Shown here in pieces: positions 55,364-64,000 of a stretch of 64,000 bases of DNA (positions within the stretch are counted from its first letter, which is position 1; each line of letters starts with the position of its first letter). The notes beneath the pieces are model-generated. The model saw nothing but the letters and a program-made list of their open reading frames with translations. It was not told the origin of the DNA and did no database searches. The position numbers and the translations under genes were made by a program. Where the stretch lies: assembly GCF_001006005.1 (NCBI RefSeq), contig NZ_CP011254.1, positions 4,526,001 to 4,590,000 of the forward strand, written 5' to 3'. This stretch comes from Serratia fonticola (GTDB lineage: Bacteria > Pseudomonadota > Gammaproteobacteria > Enterobacterales > Enterobacteriaceae).

Positions 55364-55516
55364 TTACCGCTGTTTCAGGCAAGACAGAATGGCGGCAATT
55401 TCCGTTGTTCCTTGCCTGACGCGTAATTCACACAGCGAATCACGTGTTATCCAGATGACTGCGATCAGCGTCACACAGATAACGATCAGGCATAAAACCA
55501 GCAGTTTTTGCGGCAT
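55364..55516 (-). CDS. hok: Type I toxin, Hok/Gef family
   Basis: 50 residues: MPQKLLVLCLIVICVTLIAVIWITRDSLCELRVRQG-type sequence with one membrane helix, the conserved TR-SLCE-R motif and a C-terminal EIAAILSC, as in Hok (52 residues). Depolarises the inner membrane. AAGGAGG ribosome site eight bases upstream. The frame is open 38 codons further upstream over the leader, as the mok-type overlapping frame would be. An antisense sok-like RNA is predicted opposite the leader (55571-55628). Confidence 0.88.
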   Translation of the reverse strand: MPQKLLVLCLIVICVTLIAVIWITRDSLCELRVRQGTTEIAAILSCLKQR

Positions 55517-55535
55517 TCTTAACCTCCTTGTCCCT

Positions 55536-55564
55536 TGATTTTGGGATTTTAAGAGGCTAACCTC
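55536..55564 (+). promoter_or_regulatory. sok antisense promoter
   Basis: -35 TTGATT (55536-55541), 17-bp spacer, -10 TAACCT (55559-55564), on the strand opposite hok. Same position relative to the hok ribosome site as the R1 plasmid sok promoter (AGAGGCTATCCT there, AGAGGCTAACCT here). Confidence 0.65.
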
Positions 55565-55570
55565 ACCTTG

Positions 55571-55628
55571 CTTAGGAGTGAGATCGGCCTCGGATTGATG
55601 TAAATCGGTCCGGGGCTTTTCTCTTTCC
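55571..55628 (+). ncRNA. sok: Sok-like antisense RNA
   Basis: Complementary to the hok leader upstream of its ribosome site. The 3' end CCGGGGCTTTTCTCTTTCC resembles the R1 Sok end ACGGGGCTATCTTCTTTCT. Length about 58 nt (R1 Sok 64). It would block translation of the overlapping leader frame and so of hok. Boundaries are inferred. Confidence 0.6.
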
Positions 55629-55754
55629 ATCCTTTACCAAATGCTCCAGACGGAAAGATCCAGAGCACCCACCTGCAGTCTACTTAATACCCATGCTGTT
55701 GAATGCGCACGATTGTTCAGATAGCGAAGCGTTTCGCAATTTTTCTGTGCATCA

Positions 55755-55809: not shown

Positions 55810-57318
55810 TTAGAGAGCAGCAGCTTTCGCTTTTGCTGCCGTATCTTCTGCGGTATCCAACGTCATGCGATACAGCTTCGGTGCGGTCAGCATCATCAGC
55901 ACGGCGATCACTGCCGTGGCGATACCAATCTGCATAAACACGTGGCTATAGATAGCCAAAGAAGCATGCGCATCGTTGATGTCGCTTGGGACGGCGGTCA
56001 GACCCGCGACCTTACCGGCGATCAGCGCGGCGGCGGCGGTGGTCAGGAACCAGGAGCCCATGATAAAGCCCATCAGGCGTTGTGGTACCAACTGGGCGAC
56101 CATGGCCAGACCCAGACCAGAGATCATCAACTCACCGATACTCTGCAGCGCATAGCTCAAGATTAGCCAGTTAACGGACACGATGCCCTGGTCGTTGGCG
56201 AAGCTTGCGCCCCACGGCAGCACCAGGAATGCACCGGAACACAGGATCATGCCGAAGGCAAACTTGTGCGGCATTGGCAGACGATCGCCCATCTTGTTAT
56301 ACAGCGCGGCGAGAATAGGGCTGGCCATCATGATCCAGAACGGGTTCAGTGCCTGATACTGCTCTGGTTCAAAAGCGATCCCCAGAATATTGTGCTCAAC
56401 GTTGTGGATAGCAAAGAAGTTCAGTGAGGTTGGCATCTGGCTGTACAACACGAAGAACACCACCGCTTCGAGCATCAGCAGGAAGGCCACGATCATTTTA
56501 CGACGAGCGGCACCGTGTAAGGCGAAGGTTTCCTTGGCGAACACGATGACGATACCCACAGAGATGATAGCCAGTGCCCAGCGTGCGATAATCTGGTTGT
56601 GCAGCAACCAGCTGGAAATGGCGATCAACGCCACTACACCAACGATCACCATCAGCAGTTTTTTGACCTGCAGGGGCTTAAAGTCAGGTTTTGAACCGTA
56701 TTGCTTAACCCAGCCGTGGCACATCATAAAGTTGACCAGAGTGATCAGCATCCCCACCACGCTCAGTGAGAAGGCGACGCTCCAGCCATATTTGGCCGCT
56801 AGCCATGGGGTTGCCAGCATGGAGAAGAATGAGCCGATGTTGACGGACATATAGTACATGGTAAATGCACCGTCCAAACGCGGATCGTCTTTCTCATAGC
56901 AGGTAGACAGCAGGGAAGAAGGGTTGGCTTTAAACAGACCGCTACCCACGGCGATGGTGGCCATCCCCAGGTAAACCCAGAAAATATCATGGCCAGAATA
57001 GGCCACCATGGCGTAGCCGGCGGCCAGCACAATGGCTCCCAAGACGATCACCCGCTTGGAGCCAAGAACTTTATCCCCCAACCAGCCACCAATGGCCACG
57101 AAACCGTACACCAGCGCGCTGAATGAGGAGAACAGCGTAATCGAGTCGGCTTCACTCAGGCCAAGCATCTTGACCAGATAGACCGCCATGATGCCTTGCA
57201 GACCGTAGTAGCCGAAACGTTCCCAGAGTTCAATCGAGAAGATCAGGTAGAAGGCCTTAGGTTGCTTAAACGCGTTAAGGCTAATGTTTTCCGAAGAATT
57301 GTTGTTTGCAGTTGACAC
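55810..57318 (-). CDS. dtpA: Dipeptide/tripeptide:H+ symporter DtpA
   Basis: 502 residues (E. coli 500) from GTG 57318 with AGAGGTACC upstream, the same GTG start and N-terminus (VSTAN) as E. coli; the 64-codon upstream extension is not homologous. POT family: [40 protein letters not shown] and the [15 protein letters not shown] signature, ExxERFxYY motif present. 14 membrane segments. Imports di- and tripeptides. Confidence 0.97.
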
Positions 57319-57860
57319 TGGTACCTCTGGTTTTTTCACTACCCGTATTGTCAGGACGGGAAAAGCAGAATGTGATGCAGGGCTGCACACTTCTGCATTT
57401 TTATAGGATGAATGCCGGCGGTTAATGTTCACTATCTTTGTCAACGTGGCAAGCTTTTTGACATGTTCTGTTACATATAACATAGGCAACGCTATGCAAC
57501 TATGTTGCAAATGTTATGCAGTATTAACGTTTGCCATTTTTAAATTTGCCGAGTTTTTGTTTTGATTAAAAGCTATCCTGAATTAATTTAGTTATATCTT
57601 CTGCTATTTAAGTCATATCCAGTCCATATCAATGCTCATGATTGATTAGGCCTTGGTTTGTTGTGCATAAATTGGGTTATGCAAAATATCTGAAAATGAA
57701 CAGATCGGTAGTGAGGTTTGTAAATGAGATGTGATCGTCAAGACGTGAGGTTAACCACAATTTTTGACTAATTTTACGGTTGAAAATATCTGAAACAGCG
57801 AGTTTGTAGGGTAATCCCGGGTTCCACCAAGGTTAATGCTGCCCGACGTCACATTTTTGA
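57319..57860. other. Long AT-rich intergenic region between nth and dtpA
   Basis: About 540 bp with no gene. It contains the dtpA promoter region; TGTTACATATAACATA (57469-57484), an OmpR-like word with arms TGTTA/TAACA (dtpA is OmpR-dependent in E. coli); the hairpin GCAAC-TAT-GTTGC (57496-57508); and an exact direct repeat AAAATATCTGAAA at 57683-57695 and 57783-57795, 100 bp apart. Confidence 0.45.
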
Positions 57861-57911
57861 TAAAAAACCGGAGGGAAGAGTCGCGGACACGGATCGCCGT
57901 GCCCGGTACTC
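57861..57911 (-). terminator. Terminator of the rsx-nth operon
   Basis: Right after the nth stop codon: GAGTACCGGGCACGG/CCGTGTCCGCGACTC stem with one internal mismatch region, then on the minus strand a T-run 12 bases later (GGTTTTTTATC). Confidence 0.65.
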
Positions 57912-58553
57912 TCAATCAAGCGGATAGACCTTCTCTTTAAACTCGCATAGGTCTTCGATAATGCATGAACCGCAGCGCGGTTTACGGGCGATACAGGTAT
58001 AGCGGCCATGCAGGATAAACCAGTGATGGCAGTCGACTTTAAACTCGGCGGGAACCACTTTCAGCAGCTTCTCCTCTACCTGCGCCACGTTTTTCCCTGG
58101 GGCGAAGTGGGTGCGGTTACAGACGCGGAAGATATGGGTATCAACAGCAATGGTTGGCCAACCGAAGGCCGTATTCAACACCACATTGGCCGTTTTGCGC
58201 CCCACGCCGGGCAGGGCTTCGAGTGCAGCGCGATCTTCCGGCACTTCACCCTCATGCTTTTCCAGCAGGATGCGGCAGGTTTTAATCACGTTCTCGGCTT
58301 TGCTGTTAAACAGGCCGATGGTTTTGATGTACTCCTTGACGCCGTCTACCCCTAACGCCAGCAAGGCCGCTGGCGTGTTGGCAACCGGGTAGAGCTTGGC
58401 CGTGGCCTTGTTAACGCTGACGTCGGTTGCCTGAGCGGAGAGCAGCACGGAAATTAACAGCTCAAAAGGGGTGGTATACACCAGCTCGGTGGTCGGATGC
58501 GGGTCGTTATCCCGCAAGCGGGTCAGGATCTCCAGGCGTTTCTCTTTATTCAT
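57912..58553 (-). CDS. nth: Endonuclease III
   Basis: 213 residues (E. coli 211). Bifunctional DNA glycosylase/AP lyase for oxidised pyrimidines. Catalytic K120 in the helix-hairpin-helix ([13 protein letters not shown]) and D138 (VDTHIFRV). [4Fe-4S] cluster Cys 187, 194, 197 and 203 with CX6CX2CX5C spacing. Overlaps rsxE by four bases (ATGA), so it is the last gene of the rsx operon, as in E. coli. Confidence 0.98.
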
Positions 58554-59251
58554 AGCGCTTTCTCTACGTGTCCCTGTTCCATGTTAGGTTCAACTGCCAA
58601 GGCCTTGGCTTTACGCGCCTTCATTTTTTCGTCAATCAGATATTTGGTTGCCAGCATCAAGCCCAGACCGATAAAGGCACCCGGTGGCAGCATAGCCAGC
58701 AGGAAAGGGGTGTCGAAATGGACAATCTCAATGCGCAACACCTTGGCCCAACTGCCCAGCAGCAGGTCAGCGCCATCAAATAGCGTACCGTTACCAATCA
58801 GCTCGCGTAGCGAGCCCAGCACAAACATGGCACTGGTGGCACCAAGGCCGATGGCCATACCGTCGATCAATGCCAGTCCTACCGGTTTTCGCGCCGCTAC
58901 TGCTTCAGCTCGGCCCACCACGATGCAGTTGGTGACGATCAGCGGGATAAAAATCCCCAACGACTGATACAAGCCGAAAGCGTAGGCGTTGATCAGCATT
59001 TGCACGATACTCACCGCGGCAGCAATGATCATCACATAAATCGGAATGCGGACCTCACTCGGGATCCAACGACGCAGGGCGGAAATAGAACCGTTGGTAA
59101 TGGTCAGCACCAGCGTGGTGGCCAGCCCAAGCCCCAAGGCGTTGGTGGCAGTTGACGTTACCGCCAGCAGCGGGCACAGCCCCAATAATTGCACTAACGC
59201 AGAGTTGTTTTTCCACAACCCCTGTACGATTAACTCTTTGGCTTCACTCAT
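58550..59251 (-). CDS. rsxE: Rsx (Rnf) electron transport complex subunit RsxE
   Basis: 233 residues (E. coli 231). Six membrane segments: [33 protein letters not shown] and [19 protein letters not shown] contain the conserved Cys pair (LC and NC) that holds a membrane-embedded Fe-S site in RnfA/RnfE. ATGA overlap with rsxG upstream and nth downstream. Confidence 0.97.
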
Positions 59252-59877
59252 TCGCTGGCTCCGCAGGCAGGCAAGGTATCCAGTTTAGGCGGCAGCGTCT
59301 CCATAAACAACGCTGTACGACGCACGGCGTTGACCACTGCTCGCGGGGTGATGGTAGCCCCAGTGAACTGATCAAACATGCCGCCGTCTTTCTTCACTGC
59401 CCAACGTTTATCATCCGGACCGTCGATCTTTTTACCGCTGAAGAAGGTGATCCAGTCGGTGATACGTAATTCGATTTTGTCGCCCAGCCCTGGCGTTTCG
59501 TGATGTTCTATCACGCGGGTTCCCAATACCGTGCCGTTAAAATCGGCCCCGACCAGCAGTTGGATCGCCCCAGAATAACCGTCTGGCGCGGTCGTTTCCA
59601 ACGCGGCTGCCACCAGTTGACCATTCTTGCGGGCCAGATACAGATGATGCGGCGCGCCGTTGCCTAACGCCGGATCGCTGACCAGCAGGCATTCGCTCTG
59701 CATATCGTTGTCATAATGTTCCGGCGGGACGACCTGGTCCAGCAGCGCTTTTTGTTGCAACGCCGCCTGGTGAGCAATAGTGGTTTTGGTTAACTGGTAC
59801 ACCACGGCGGTCAGGCCGGTGGTGACAGCGGCAAACACGGCCAGTGTGGTGCCATGCTTTCTCATGGAATTAAGCAT
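59248..59877 (-). CDS. rsxG: Rsx complex subunit RsxG
   Basis: 209 residues (E. coli 206). N-terminal membrane helix ([21 protein letters not shown]) and a periplasmic FMN-binding domain; FMN is attached to a Thr in [11 protein letters not shown] (flavinylation motif). [17 protein letters not shown] is conserved. Overlaps rsxE. Confidence 0.96.
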
Positions 59878-59886
59878 AATGACTCC

Positions 59887-60972
59887 TCAACGGTGGCCAT
59901 ACACGCGTGGCTGCGTGTAGTGATCGATCAAAGGCACGGTAATGTTGGCCAGCAGTACGGCAAAGGCTACCCCGTCGGGATAACCGCCATACACGCGGAT
60001 CAGCCAGACCAGCAAGCCAACCAGGCCGCCGTAAATCAGCCGACCTTTGGGCGTGGTAGAGGCACTGACCGGGTCGGTGGCTATAAAGAAAGCCCCGAGC
60101 ATAGTGGCCCCGGAAAACAGGTGGATCAGCGGGGAAGCCTGATGGGCCGGATCTAACGTCCAGGCTAATCCTGAGCACAGGGCAATGACGGCCACCATGC
60201 TGAACGGGATTTGCCAGTGGATCAGCTTACGACCCAGCATAAACAGGCCGCCGAGCAGGAAGCCCAGGTTAATCCACTGCCAGCCGATACCGGCCAGGGT
60301 GCCACCGAACAGCGGTTGCTGGAGTACCTGTTCGACCGAGTGGCCGCTGCGTAGGCCGGTTTTAAAACCGTCTAATGGCGTCGCCTGGCTGATGCCATCA
60401 ACGCCCATCTGCAATTCGTGCAGAGTGGCTCCCTGGGCGGTGTGGCCACTGAAAATAGCTAGCAGGGTATCCGGCAGGGTCAGGGCGGTTGCGCGCAGCT
60501 CTTCCGGCGGTAACCAACTGGTCATCTGTACCGGGAAGGAGATTAGCAGCACCACGTAACCCACCATGGCCGGGTTGAAAGGGTTTTGCCCCAGTCCGCC
60601 GTATAGCTGTTTGGCGATCACAATGGCGAAGAAGGTGCCGATAACGATCATCCACCAGGGAGCCAGCGGTGGCAGGCTAATGCCCAGCAACAGCGCAGTG
60701 AGCAGGGCGGAATTATCTGCCAGCCGTGTCTTGACTGGCTGTTTACGTAGCGCAAGAATGGCGGCCTCGGCCCCGAGGGCGGTCACCATGGCCAGCGCGG
60801 TCTGAATAAGGTTGCCATAGCCAAAGAACCACACCTGTGCGGCCATGCCGGGAATGCAGGCCAGCATAACCCAAAGCATGATGCGGCTGGTGCTTTGCTG
60901 GTTATGGGTAAACGGAGAGCTGGCGATGTGTAAGCCCTTGGGGGCTGCCTGTTGTACCGGCCTGAACTTCAT
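59887..60972 (-). CDS. rsxD: Rsx complex subunit RsxD
   Basis: 361 residues (E. coli 352). Ten membrane segments; the FMN-carrying Thr lies in [32 protein letters not shown] and [18 protein letters not shown] are RnfD signatures. In E. coli rsxD follows rsxC directly. Here 1.2 kb separates them, with an AraC-type gene in opposite orientation between, so rsxDGE-nth must have a promoter of its own in 60973-61267 or elsewhere. Confidence 0.96.
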
Positions 60973-61188
60973 AGAATAACTACCATTTCTTTGCCATGTT
61001 AATCAGTGCATTCACGGTGCGGGCACCGGGGGAAATTACAGCGCTGCATTCTACCTCAATCATATGCCGGGTAATACGTGCTAATCATAAGGATATTCAG
61101 CTTTTGCGGTGAGAAAAAGCCAGGCTGGATGTAAAACGTGCAGTATGGGTTGTCATACTGATGATCGAGCTGCTATTTTTGGACTGCT

Positions 61189-61218
61189 TTGCGCACGGAA
61201 TAACAACTTTCATATAAT
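61189..61218 (+). promoter_or_regulatory. Promoter of the AraC-type gene
   Basis: -35 TTGCGC (61189-61194), 18-bp spacer, -10 TATAAT (61213-61218), 50 bases before the start codon. A GCAC-N8-ACAA block in the spacer weakly recalls a marbox. Confidence 0.6.
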
Positions 61219-61267
61219 TAACGCAGGTTACTATCCTGAGCATTTTTGAAGTAGCGAACATCTAATA

Positions 61268-62161
61268 ATGACTAATGAAGATATTTTATTTATTGAAGAG
61301 CTGATTGAATGGGTCGAAATTCATCTGGAAACGCGGCCCAATCTGGATGAAGTTGCGCGTATCTCCGGCTACTCCAAGTGGCACCTGCAGCGTAAGTTCA
61401 AGCGTATCACCGGTATCCAGCTCGCCACCTATATTCGCTCACGCATTCTTACCCGTGCGGCGGTCGCGCTGCGCATCAGCAATCGTACGATTATCGATAT
61501 CTCCGATGAATTGGGCTTTGATTCACAGCAAACCTTCACCCGGATGTTTAAGCAACGTTTTGGCATTACGCCAAACCGCTACCGTACCATGGAGAAATGG
61601 GACGTGAAGAGCCTGATGCCGCGCTTCGACTTCGAAGCCGTATATGAGGCGGGTTTCTATCCGGAGATTCAACGGCTGACGTTGCCAGATACGCACCTGG
61701 TCGGTTTTACACGTGAGATGGAATTTGATACTGCCCAAGAGATGGCCATTTCTTCCTGTATCGCCATGAAGGGGGAAATCTTTAATGACTTCTTCAAAGG
61801 GCTGAATATGGAGTGCCACAAGGTTTACAGCATCCATTCTGACAATGAGCGCGGCGAAGGCGAGTGTTCAGTCACGCATACCATGGCGGTGGAGCCGGAA
61901 TTCAAGAAGGACATCCTTTCTGGTCACAAGATTGAAGATATTCGCTTGCCAGCGCGTGAGTACATCGCGATTACCCATCAGGGGACGGCCAAAGAGTGCG
62001 TGAAATTTATCTCTTACCTGATCTCGCATGTGATGCCAGGGCTGCGTAATGAAGTACGCGGAAGCGTAGAGATGGAGATGATCGAAGCTAAGGCGTGGAA
62101 CCAGGATGCGAAACTGCGGCAGATCGATGTCAATTACACCTACCTGATTTCTATCGATTAA
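61268..62161 (+). CDS. AraC-family regulator of the Rob/SoxS/MarA type with GyrI-like domain
   Basis: 297 residues (E. coli Rob 289). N-terminal double HTH, residues about 8-105: DEVARISGYSKWHLQRKFKRITG and the second helix pair with FDSQQTFTRMFKQRFGITPNRYR, very close to Rob, SoxS and MarA, including the DNA-reading WHLQR. C-terminal GyrI-like effector domain, about 118-297, as in Rob. It lies between rsxC and rsxD, facing rsxC and divergent from rsxD. Rsx reduces SoxR to shut off soxS, so a SoxS/Rob-like protein here suggests a joint redox circuit (inference). Confidence 0.9.
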   Translation: MTNEDILFIEELIEWVEIHLETRPNLDEVARISGYSKWHLQRKFKRITGIQLATYIRSRILTRAAVALRISNRTIIDISDELGFDSQQTFTRMFKQRFGITPNRYRTMEKWDVKSLMPRFDFEAVYEAGFYPEIQRLTLPDTHLVGFTREMEFDTAQEMAISSCIAMKGEIFNDFFKGLNMECHKVYSIHSDNERGEGECSVTHTMAVEPEFKKDILSGHKIEDIRLPAREYIAITHQGTAKECVKFISYLISHVMPGLRNEVRGSVEMEMIEAKAWNQDAKLRQIDVNYTYLISID

Positions 62162-62162
62162 G

Positions 62163-62190
62163 TGGGGCCTTGCATTCGGCAAGACCCCAT
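62163..62190. terminator. Shared hairpin between the AraC-type gene and rsxC
   Basis: GGGGCCTTGC/GCAAGACCCC stem with one wobble pair in the 34-bp gap between convergent stop codons. Confidence 0.6.
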
Positions 62191-62195
62191 ACCGC

Positions 62196-64000
62196 TTACT
62201 CTTTATCTACCATCGCCAGTTGCTGAGCGGCCTTTTTTGCCTTGACTCGGGCCAGCGCGGCAGCAACGGCGGCCTTGCGTGGATCTTCCGGTTCAGCCGT
62301 AGGGATGGGGTCCTCGTCAACTTGCGGTTGAGAAAGCTCAGTTTGCTGCGCCGCCTTTTTCGCCTTCACGCGGGCCAGCGCGGCAGCAACGGCGGCCTTG
62401 CGTGGATCCTCCGGTTCAGCCGTAGGGTTGGGTTCTTCGTCAACTTTTGGTTGAGAAAGCTCCGCTTGCTGTGCGGCCTTTTTGGCTTTGACTCGGGCCA
62501 GCGCGGCGGCAACGGCGGCCTTGCGTGGATCTTCCGGTTCAGCCGTAGGGATGGGTTCCTCGTCAACCTGCGGTTGTGAAAGCTCAGCCTGCTGCGCGGC
62601 CTTTTTCGCCTTCACGCGGGCTAATGCCGCCGCTACCGCAGCCTTACGCGGATCCTCTGAAGCTACAGTTTCCGCCACGCTTTCAGCGTCTTGTGCCTGC
62701 GCCTCTTTCTTGGCTTTGACTCGTGCCAATGCTGCAGACACGGCCGCTTTACGTGGATCTTCATCTTGCACCGCTGCGGCAGGCATTTCACTAGTTTGCT
62801 CGAGCTTGCGCTCTCTAGCCTGTGCTTTACGCGCTTCGCGGGCAGCAATGGCAGCGCTGTTATCCGGCTCCTGGCCGCTGATAGCAACGCCAGCAGCCTC
62901 ACTGTTTTTGCTGCGAACGCGAGCCAAAGCCGCCTGAACGGCATCTTGATCGCTGTCGGTCAGTTTCACCGCGGCCTTTTTATGACGCTCTTCGCGCGCC
63001 AGCTTCTCACGCTCTAAGCGGGCCAGCTTGGCTTCATAACGTGCCTTGGCTTCGGCGGTACGTGCCGCTTCCTGATCCAACGCGTTAATCTCGGCCTTCT
63101 CTTGGCGATAATATTGCACCAGCGGAATATTGCTGGGGCAAACGTAGGCACAGGCACCACATTCGATACAGTCGAACAGGTTGTGCTTACGCGCCTTCTC
63201 GTGCTCTTCGCCACGGCTGAACCAGTAAAGCTGCTGCGGCAACAGCCCGGCAGGGCAGGCATCAACGCACAGCCCACAGCGAATACAGGACTGCTCTGGT
63301 TCTTGTACGGCCATTTCGTCAACCGTCGGGGCCAGTAAGCAGTTGCTGATTTTGACAATCGGCACGTTTAACGTTGGCAACGTAAAGCCCATCAGCGGGC
63401 CGCCCATTACCACCATCTGTTGGGATTGAGGTTGATAGCCGCCAAAGGCCAGCAGGTGTTGCACCGGCGTGCCGAGGCGCGCCCAGACGTTGCCCGGTCG
63501 GCTCATGGCCTCACCGGTTAAGGTGACGACGCGTTCAATCAACGGCTCGCCATCGACAATCGCCCGCTTGATGGCAAAGGCGGTGCCCACGTTCTGCATC
63601 AGCACGCCGATGGTGGACGAACGCTTGCCGTGAGGCACTTCTTTGCCCGTCAGAATTTTGGTTAACTGCTTGGCACCACCAGAAGGGTATTTGGTAGGGA
63701 TCACCCGCAGGGCGATGCCATCCTGCCCGCGCAAAGCGGCTTTCAGCGCGGCGATGGCTTCCGGCTTGTTATCTTCGATGCCGATCAGCGTCACTTTGGG
63801 TTGTAACAGGTGGCGCAGGATCTGGGTGCCTTCGATAATCTGAGCGGCCTGTTCCTGCATCAGCCGGTCGTCGGCGGTGATATAGGGCTCGCATTCGGCA
63901 GCGTTGAGGATCAGGGTTTCCACCTCTTCACGGCCACCTTGCAGCTTACTGGCCGTTGGGAAACCCGCGCCCCCCAGTCCGGCAATCCCGGCCTGATGAA
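62196..64000 (-). CDS. rsxC: Rsx complex subunit RsxC (5' end outside window)
   Basis: Open to the window edge; about 600 residues of RsxC are visible. The frame runs through [20 protein letters not shown] (NADH/FMN-binding region) into [21 protein letters not shown], then two [4Fe-4S] motifs [12 protein letters not shown] and [12 protein letters not shown], a long charged helical linker, and five C-terminal repeats of [19 protein letters not shown]. The GTG at 63923 is internal, not a start. The peripheral subunit feeds electrons from NADH to the complex. It faces the AraC-type gene, and rsxA and rsxB are expected beyond the window. Confidence 0.96.
62205..62770 (-). repeat. 123-bp tandem repeats within rsxC
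   Basis: The motif (A/C)GTGGATC recurs at 62278, 62401, 62524 and (as CGCGGATCC) 62647, each 123 bp apart, and once more about 104 bp on. It encodes 41-residue units that are nearly identical in DNA sequence, so copy number may vary by slippage or recombination. Confidence 0.9.

Follow-up and report, generated by a model that had tools for sequence, protein, structure and literature searches.

A Rob-like regulator gene splits the rsx operon of Serratia and Yersinia, leaving rsxDGE-nth with a putative promoter that resembles that of rsxA

In Serratia fonticola the rsx (rnf) operon is divided between rsxC and rsxD by a complete gene, on the opposite strand, for an AraC-type regulator with a GyrI-like domain. 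The locus lies in a 64,000-nucleotide (nt) stretch of contig NZ_CP011254.1 (positions 4,526,001 to 4,590,000), here called the window. The split is real and conserved, and is a locus arrangement that we did not find in print; among the titles returned by searches of one open-licence literature collection, none describes an rsx operon split by an AraC-type gene. We consider it fairly probable that an autonomous regulator was inserted, that it acts in trans, and that the two halves of the split operon are under shared control. The support for this reading comes from the distribution of the arrangement among related genomes, from a conserved block upstream of rsxD that resembles the rsxA promoter, and from a reduced genome that keeps this block and has no match to the regulator.

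The split locus and its distribution

The products of rsxC, rsxD and rsxG score above their equivalog cut-offs (Table 1), which identifies the locus as an rsx/rnf operon, and rsxG, rsxE and nth follow downstream of rsxD with a spacing of 9 nt or an overlap. Gene order and products are those of E. coli K-12, in which the rsxC stop and the rsxD start touch (0 nt), whereas in S. fonticola they are 1223 nt apart and the contiguous rsxC-rsxD of an undivided operon is not found. The spacer consists of 34 nt between convergent stops, the regulator gene, which begins with ATG, and 295 nt between the regulator and rsxD. The 1.2-kb separation and the intact 297-residue frame within it, both claimed by the original prediction, are thus borne out.

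Among named genomes the search returned 31 loci, 29 of which carry an orthologue of the regulator (19 in Serratia, one with a broken frame, and 10 in Yersinia). RsxD divergently adjoins the orthologue at all 29, and RsxC lies on the far side of it at 22; at the other seven the contig ends first. Matches in Hafnia and Citrobacter cover the helix-turn-helix (HTH) only, and RsxC, RsxD and RsxG queries were unmatched in those loci. Among 392 genomes of the family, RsxD is present in 292 (E <= 1e-60) and the regulator in 23 (E <= 1e-48). The regulator lies, by coordinates, within about 0.7 kb of rsxD in 18 of these 23, which are the split loci and include the one with a broken frame (G162). The remaining five genomes (genera g103 and g49) have relatives with 36-40% identity away from rsx, 11-68 kb from it on the same contig in four and on another contig in one, with rsxC and rsxD contiguous. 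Gibbsiella also has the regulator (P0016, protein search), likewise antisense within the operon. The broken frame, that of S. rubidaea (L029/G162), is disrupted by several small frame changes; the assembly is 91% complete, and the break is not used as evidence; the frame is intact in G016, of the same genus.

For the undivided form, 31 of the 274 non-split genomes with RsxD were read, picked by score or special features and not at random. At 29 of these rsxD is either overlapped by a same-strand frame or no more than 37 nt from its end, and RsxC was matched at 28 of the 29, the unmatched locus (L056) being a short stretch. The remaining two of the 31 are reduced genomes with a spacer, of 149 nt in G029 (L095) and 523 nt in G118 (L097), and the regulator query found no match in either at E <= 0.001. 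Compared across Serratia, Yersinia and E. coli, the rsxC-rsxD spacing confirms the split as a clade feature and not a one-off. Two other ideas were rejected: a fusion of RsxC to RsxD, which the long open frames of G358 and G230 had suggested, because the rsxC frame in L108 and L109 stops just before rsxD, and a tie between the split and a 12-residue N-terminal extension of RsxD, because the extension occurs in non-split genomes too.

Table 1. Features of the split rsx locus in the window (strand as read; a point marks a feature without strand)
Feature	Position	Strand	Basis or remark
rsxC (5' end outside window)	62196..64000	-	RsxC 622 bits, cut-off 345
Hairpin without T-run, between the convergent regulator and rsxC stops	62163..62189	.	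fold z-scores
Rob-like AraC-GyrI regulator, 297 amino acids (aa)	61268..62161	+	open reading frame (ORF), Pfam, equivalog scores, identities, AlphaFold2 (AF2) fold match
Putative -10 (TATAAT) of regulator gene	61213..61218	+	sequence, alignment
Marbox-like conserved stretch over regulator -35	61190..61210	+	Serratia, Gibbsiella only
Upstream box AATATCCTT, 44 bp before -10	61089..61097	-	spacing equal to rsxA promoter box
Serratia/Yersinia common block, putative rsxD promoter	61041..61097	-	up to 21/30 columns common
Putative -10 (TAGAAT), rsxDGE-nth promoter	61048..61053	-	30/30 aligned intergenic regions
rsxD	59887..60972	-	RsxD 599.6 bits, cut-off 415
rsxG	59248..59877	-	RsxG 345.3 bits, cut-off 178
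rsxE	58550..59251	-	ORF; named by position and E. coli order
nth	57912..58553	-	ORF; named by position and E. coli order

A putative promoter before rsxD and control of the two halves

We aligned 30 regulator-rsxD intergenic regions, 20 from Serratia or Gibbsiella and 10 from Yersinia. Among 301 window columns, 85 are conserved and common to both groups, and these are densest at 61066-61102. Read towards rsxD, the common block contains an AATAnCC-type box, CGTATTAC, and then the putative -10. The box is recognisable in 29 of the 30 regions; in Y. aldovae its distance is 45 bp, not 44. It had been expected that the split would force rsxDGE-nth to have a separate promoter, and this conserved block answers to that expectation as a putative one. 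A matrix built from 29 regions, when scored upstream of rsxD, gave -18.4 or lower at all 23 contiguous loci scored, two of which come from one genome, and 8.4 at L095 in the reduced genome G029, which keeps the block. In that genome a stretch of about 25 bp over the block is duplicated in tandem.

Similar letters occur 44 bp before the -10 of rsxA in the Serratia and Yersinia loci read, in E. coli, and in L107, L110 and L111. In 22 genomes with both promoters the rsxA and rsxD profiles match best at zero shift (12.57; the next of 13 printed values is 4.75), and the observed 9-mer score was reached in none of 20000 and none of 3000 permutations of the columns, which ignore relatedness and so give no exact probability. 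Since the same upstream box is found at the same 44-bp spacing before rsxA and rsxD, a shared factor probably controls both halves. The window matches 14 of 16 positions of the IscR type 2 consensus, and against shuffles the median P is 0.05 over the 30 rsxD regions and 0.35 over 22 rsxA regions; we count such a site as a candidate for rsxD but not for rsxA. The terms 'rsx' and 'rnf' are absent from the main text of a Yersinia IscR ChIP-seq (chromatin immunoprecipitation sequencing) paper (PMC8262890).

The regulator might instead control the divergent rsxDGE-nth promoter directly, with the halves of Rsx deliberately uncoupled. A divergent layout kept in both Serratia and Yersinia, a conserved block within the intergenic region, and a partial marbox match in this block (10 of 14 specified positions, rsxD strand, in the window) would agree with such local control. 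The GCAC letters of that match, however, occur in only 4 of the 30 regions, E. coli, with no such regulator in its rsx locus, has the box at this spacing upstream of rsxA as well, and the block persists in G029. We regard direct local control as unlikely. Because a regulator-less reduced genome keeps the rsxD promoter, the regulator probably acts mainly in trans, as a MarA/Rob-type activator. It is a little more doubtful still that the insertion is neutral for rsx, with targets of the regulator elsewhere and a position merely inherited. The sister proteins of the five genomes in which rsxC and rsxD are contiguous lie away from rsx, as this would predict, but position and orientation are kept in all 29 named loci and the rsxD promoter block is conserved.

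The reading that we prefer, an autonomous regulator acting in trans beside two co-controlled half-operons, has several observations against it. The upstream box is lost in Serratia sp. Ag1, taken to be the one split region of the 30 with a matrix score of -31.7, and the rsxA box was unseen in 15 of the 19 non-split loci read upstream of rsxA, nine of which had no -10 found by the script. Only one of the two regulator-less spaced genomes keeps the block, the score at L097 being -18.2. Counts of marboxes in single sequences do not exceed those in shuffles, and S. fonticola has a 147-aa SoxS/Rob-like protein that reaches 149.9 bits vs a SoxS cut-off of 174 and shares 58% identity with SoxS and 74% with the N-terminal region of Rob. 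Finally, Serratia and Yersinia do not form one clade in a tree built from 30 selected RsxD rows (approximately unbiased test, p-AU 0.0104), so that a single gain is not shown.

The regulator and the SoxR-SoxS system

The regulator has both domains of AraC regulators with a GyrI-like domain, with Pfam scores of 73.6 bits for HTH_18 (cut-off 33.6) and 33.5 bits for GyrI-like (cut-off 26). Its nearest equivalog is RobA (NF012228; 209.7 bits, under the cut-off of 380), and it fails the SoxS equivalog (NF007584) in score (112.4 bits vs 174) and in length (297 aa vs about 107 aa). In its HTH segments it is nearly identical to MarA, Rob and SoxS. The earlier assignment to the Rob/SoxS type is upheld. 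In an AF2 model of middling confidence (mean pLDDT, the predicted local distance difference test, 74.9; pTM, the predicted template modelling score, 0.63) the N-terminal domain matches the fold of MarA and Rob and the C-terminal domain that of BmrR/BrlR-type proteins. The protein resembles Rob in its AraC-type HTH, its GyrI-like domain, its size (about 290 aa) and its fold, but is only 33% identical to it. The genome has a separate Rob of its own (L033, 72% identical to E. coli Rob), and judged by sequence the regulator is Rob-like, not Rob itself. Two further Rob-like two-domain proteins, L034 and L035 (47% and 38% identical to E. coli Rob), are present in the same genome. The strongly conserved DNA-binding domain would bind mar/sox/rob-type sites, and the GyrI-like domain may sense small molecules; it differs from BmrR/BrlR-type drug-binding domains in being only 9-18% identical to them.

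Two MarA-like proteins of Yersinia pestis, MarA47Yp and MarA48Yp, were reportedly described by Udani and Levy in 2006 and by Lister in 2010. The name MarA47Yp reportedly comes from 47% identity in the N-terminus. Over its N-terminal part, the orthologue in Y. pestis (P0025) shares 47.6% identity with E. coli MarA. In one Y. similis genome only two MarA-like proteins reach 46-47%, the regulator orthologue and a Rob that is 68.5% identical to E. coli Rob, and one more stands at 35%. From these identities the orthologue is likely to be one of the two reported proteins; the values for Rob and the orthologue are too close to assign either name. According to a passage in PMC6176095, MarA47 and MarA48 of Y. 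pestis KIM are regulators of drug sensitivity and virulence.

The original prediction also gave the regulator a promoter of its own. The likely -10 is conserved in Serratia and Gibbsiella, which also have in common a CGCAC..AATAACAACTTT stretch before it that is not found in the Yersinia sequences of the alignment; in S. fonticola the pattern occurs once in the genome with one mismatch and twice with three. The promoter scan of 57000-64000 was at chance level (4 found vs 4.8 expected). In Serratia the regulator might activate itself through this marbox-like stretch. Of the terminator that the regulator was said to share with rsxC, the hairpin stands: it is strong on both strands (z -3.5 on + and -3.6 on -) and also folds at the six further Serratia loci analysed (z -3.9 to -6.7), with arm letters that differ among Serratia loci (pair changes uncounted). 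It lacks the T-run, and the terminator scan does not list it.

A passage in PMC11729352 describes Rsx as part of the SoxR-reducing system of E. coli, and a Rob/SoxS-like activator within the operon had been taken to suggest a local redox feedback. The E. coli SoxR protein found only 28-34% matches in the S. fonticola genome, where no target for a SoxR-reducing system was found. We surveyed the SoxR family in 43 chosen genomes (18 split, 5 with a sister protein and 20 others; the E. coli control was positive). SoxR was over the cut-off in 13, namely 4 of 18 split, 0 of 5 sister and 9 of 20 others, with 0 of 5 Yersinia; it was below it in S. fonticola and 13 further split genomes. SoxS exceeded its cut-off in 3 of 18 genomes searched and in 0 of 15 split genomes tested, where the best scores rose to 150.9 bits vs 174. 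A SoxR-Rsx-SoxS-like loop is therefore hardly credible, and is already contradicted in its SoxR form for S. fonticola unless a diverged SoxR was missed. As SoxR is patchy across the survey, its absence is not special to the split; as rsx is widely kept all the same, Rsx probably does something other than reduce SoxR in many genomes. There is a slender chance that, where SoxR and SoxS are missing, the rsx-embedded Rob paralogue has taken over, that it senses redox-cycling compounds directly through its BmrR/BrlR-like domain, and that its position within rsx couples a mar-type regulon to the expression of Rsx.

Origin and meaning of the split

Regulators from Serratia, Gibbsiella and Yersinia cluster together with support (98/98) and apart from Rob, on a tree that carries a long-branch warning, and the g103 and g49 proteins are sister to them (97/91). 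In the RsxD tree L095 and L097 group among the Serratia rows, as does L107, a contiguous locus with a long branch. These trees do not separate a single gain followed by losses from multiple gains or from transfer, and the neighbours of the g103 and g49 sister genes yielded no origin story.

Some side observations concern other parts of the window and its relatives. The RsxC tail contains a 123-bp tandem repeat (62220-62657; 3.6 copies, 85% match), and the length of the rsxC frame varies among relatives, up to about 1000 aa in L101. An Rfam sok antitoxin RNA (RF01794, 91.6 bits) at 55514-55670 (-) overlaps a short ORF at 55364-55630 (-), the C-terminal part of which we take to be Hok-like.

We suggest that the gene of an autonomous Rob/MarA-type activator was inserted between rsxC and rsxD in an ancestor of the Serratia and Yersinia loci and was then kept. 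In the sequence the operon stands as two units, rsxABC and rsxDGE-nth, separated by the antisense regulator, and a single factor common to the two halves probably coordinates them. The regulator would act from this position in trans and, in S. fonticola, outside any SoxR-Rsx-SoxS loop. Control of subunit stoichiometry in two parts, as first proposed, is possible; co-control of the halves is likelier.

The split rsx operon offers a natural test of how balance is held in a membrane complex whose operon has been cut, as the detached half carries a putative promoter in which an rsxA-type box stands at the same spacing as in rsxA. The split also gives a probable multidrug-resistance-type regulator a defined locus across Serratia and Yersinia. 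Should the rsx-embedded Rob paralogue prove to sense redox-cycling compounds, it would be a one-protein stand-in for SoxRS.
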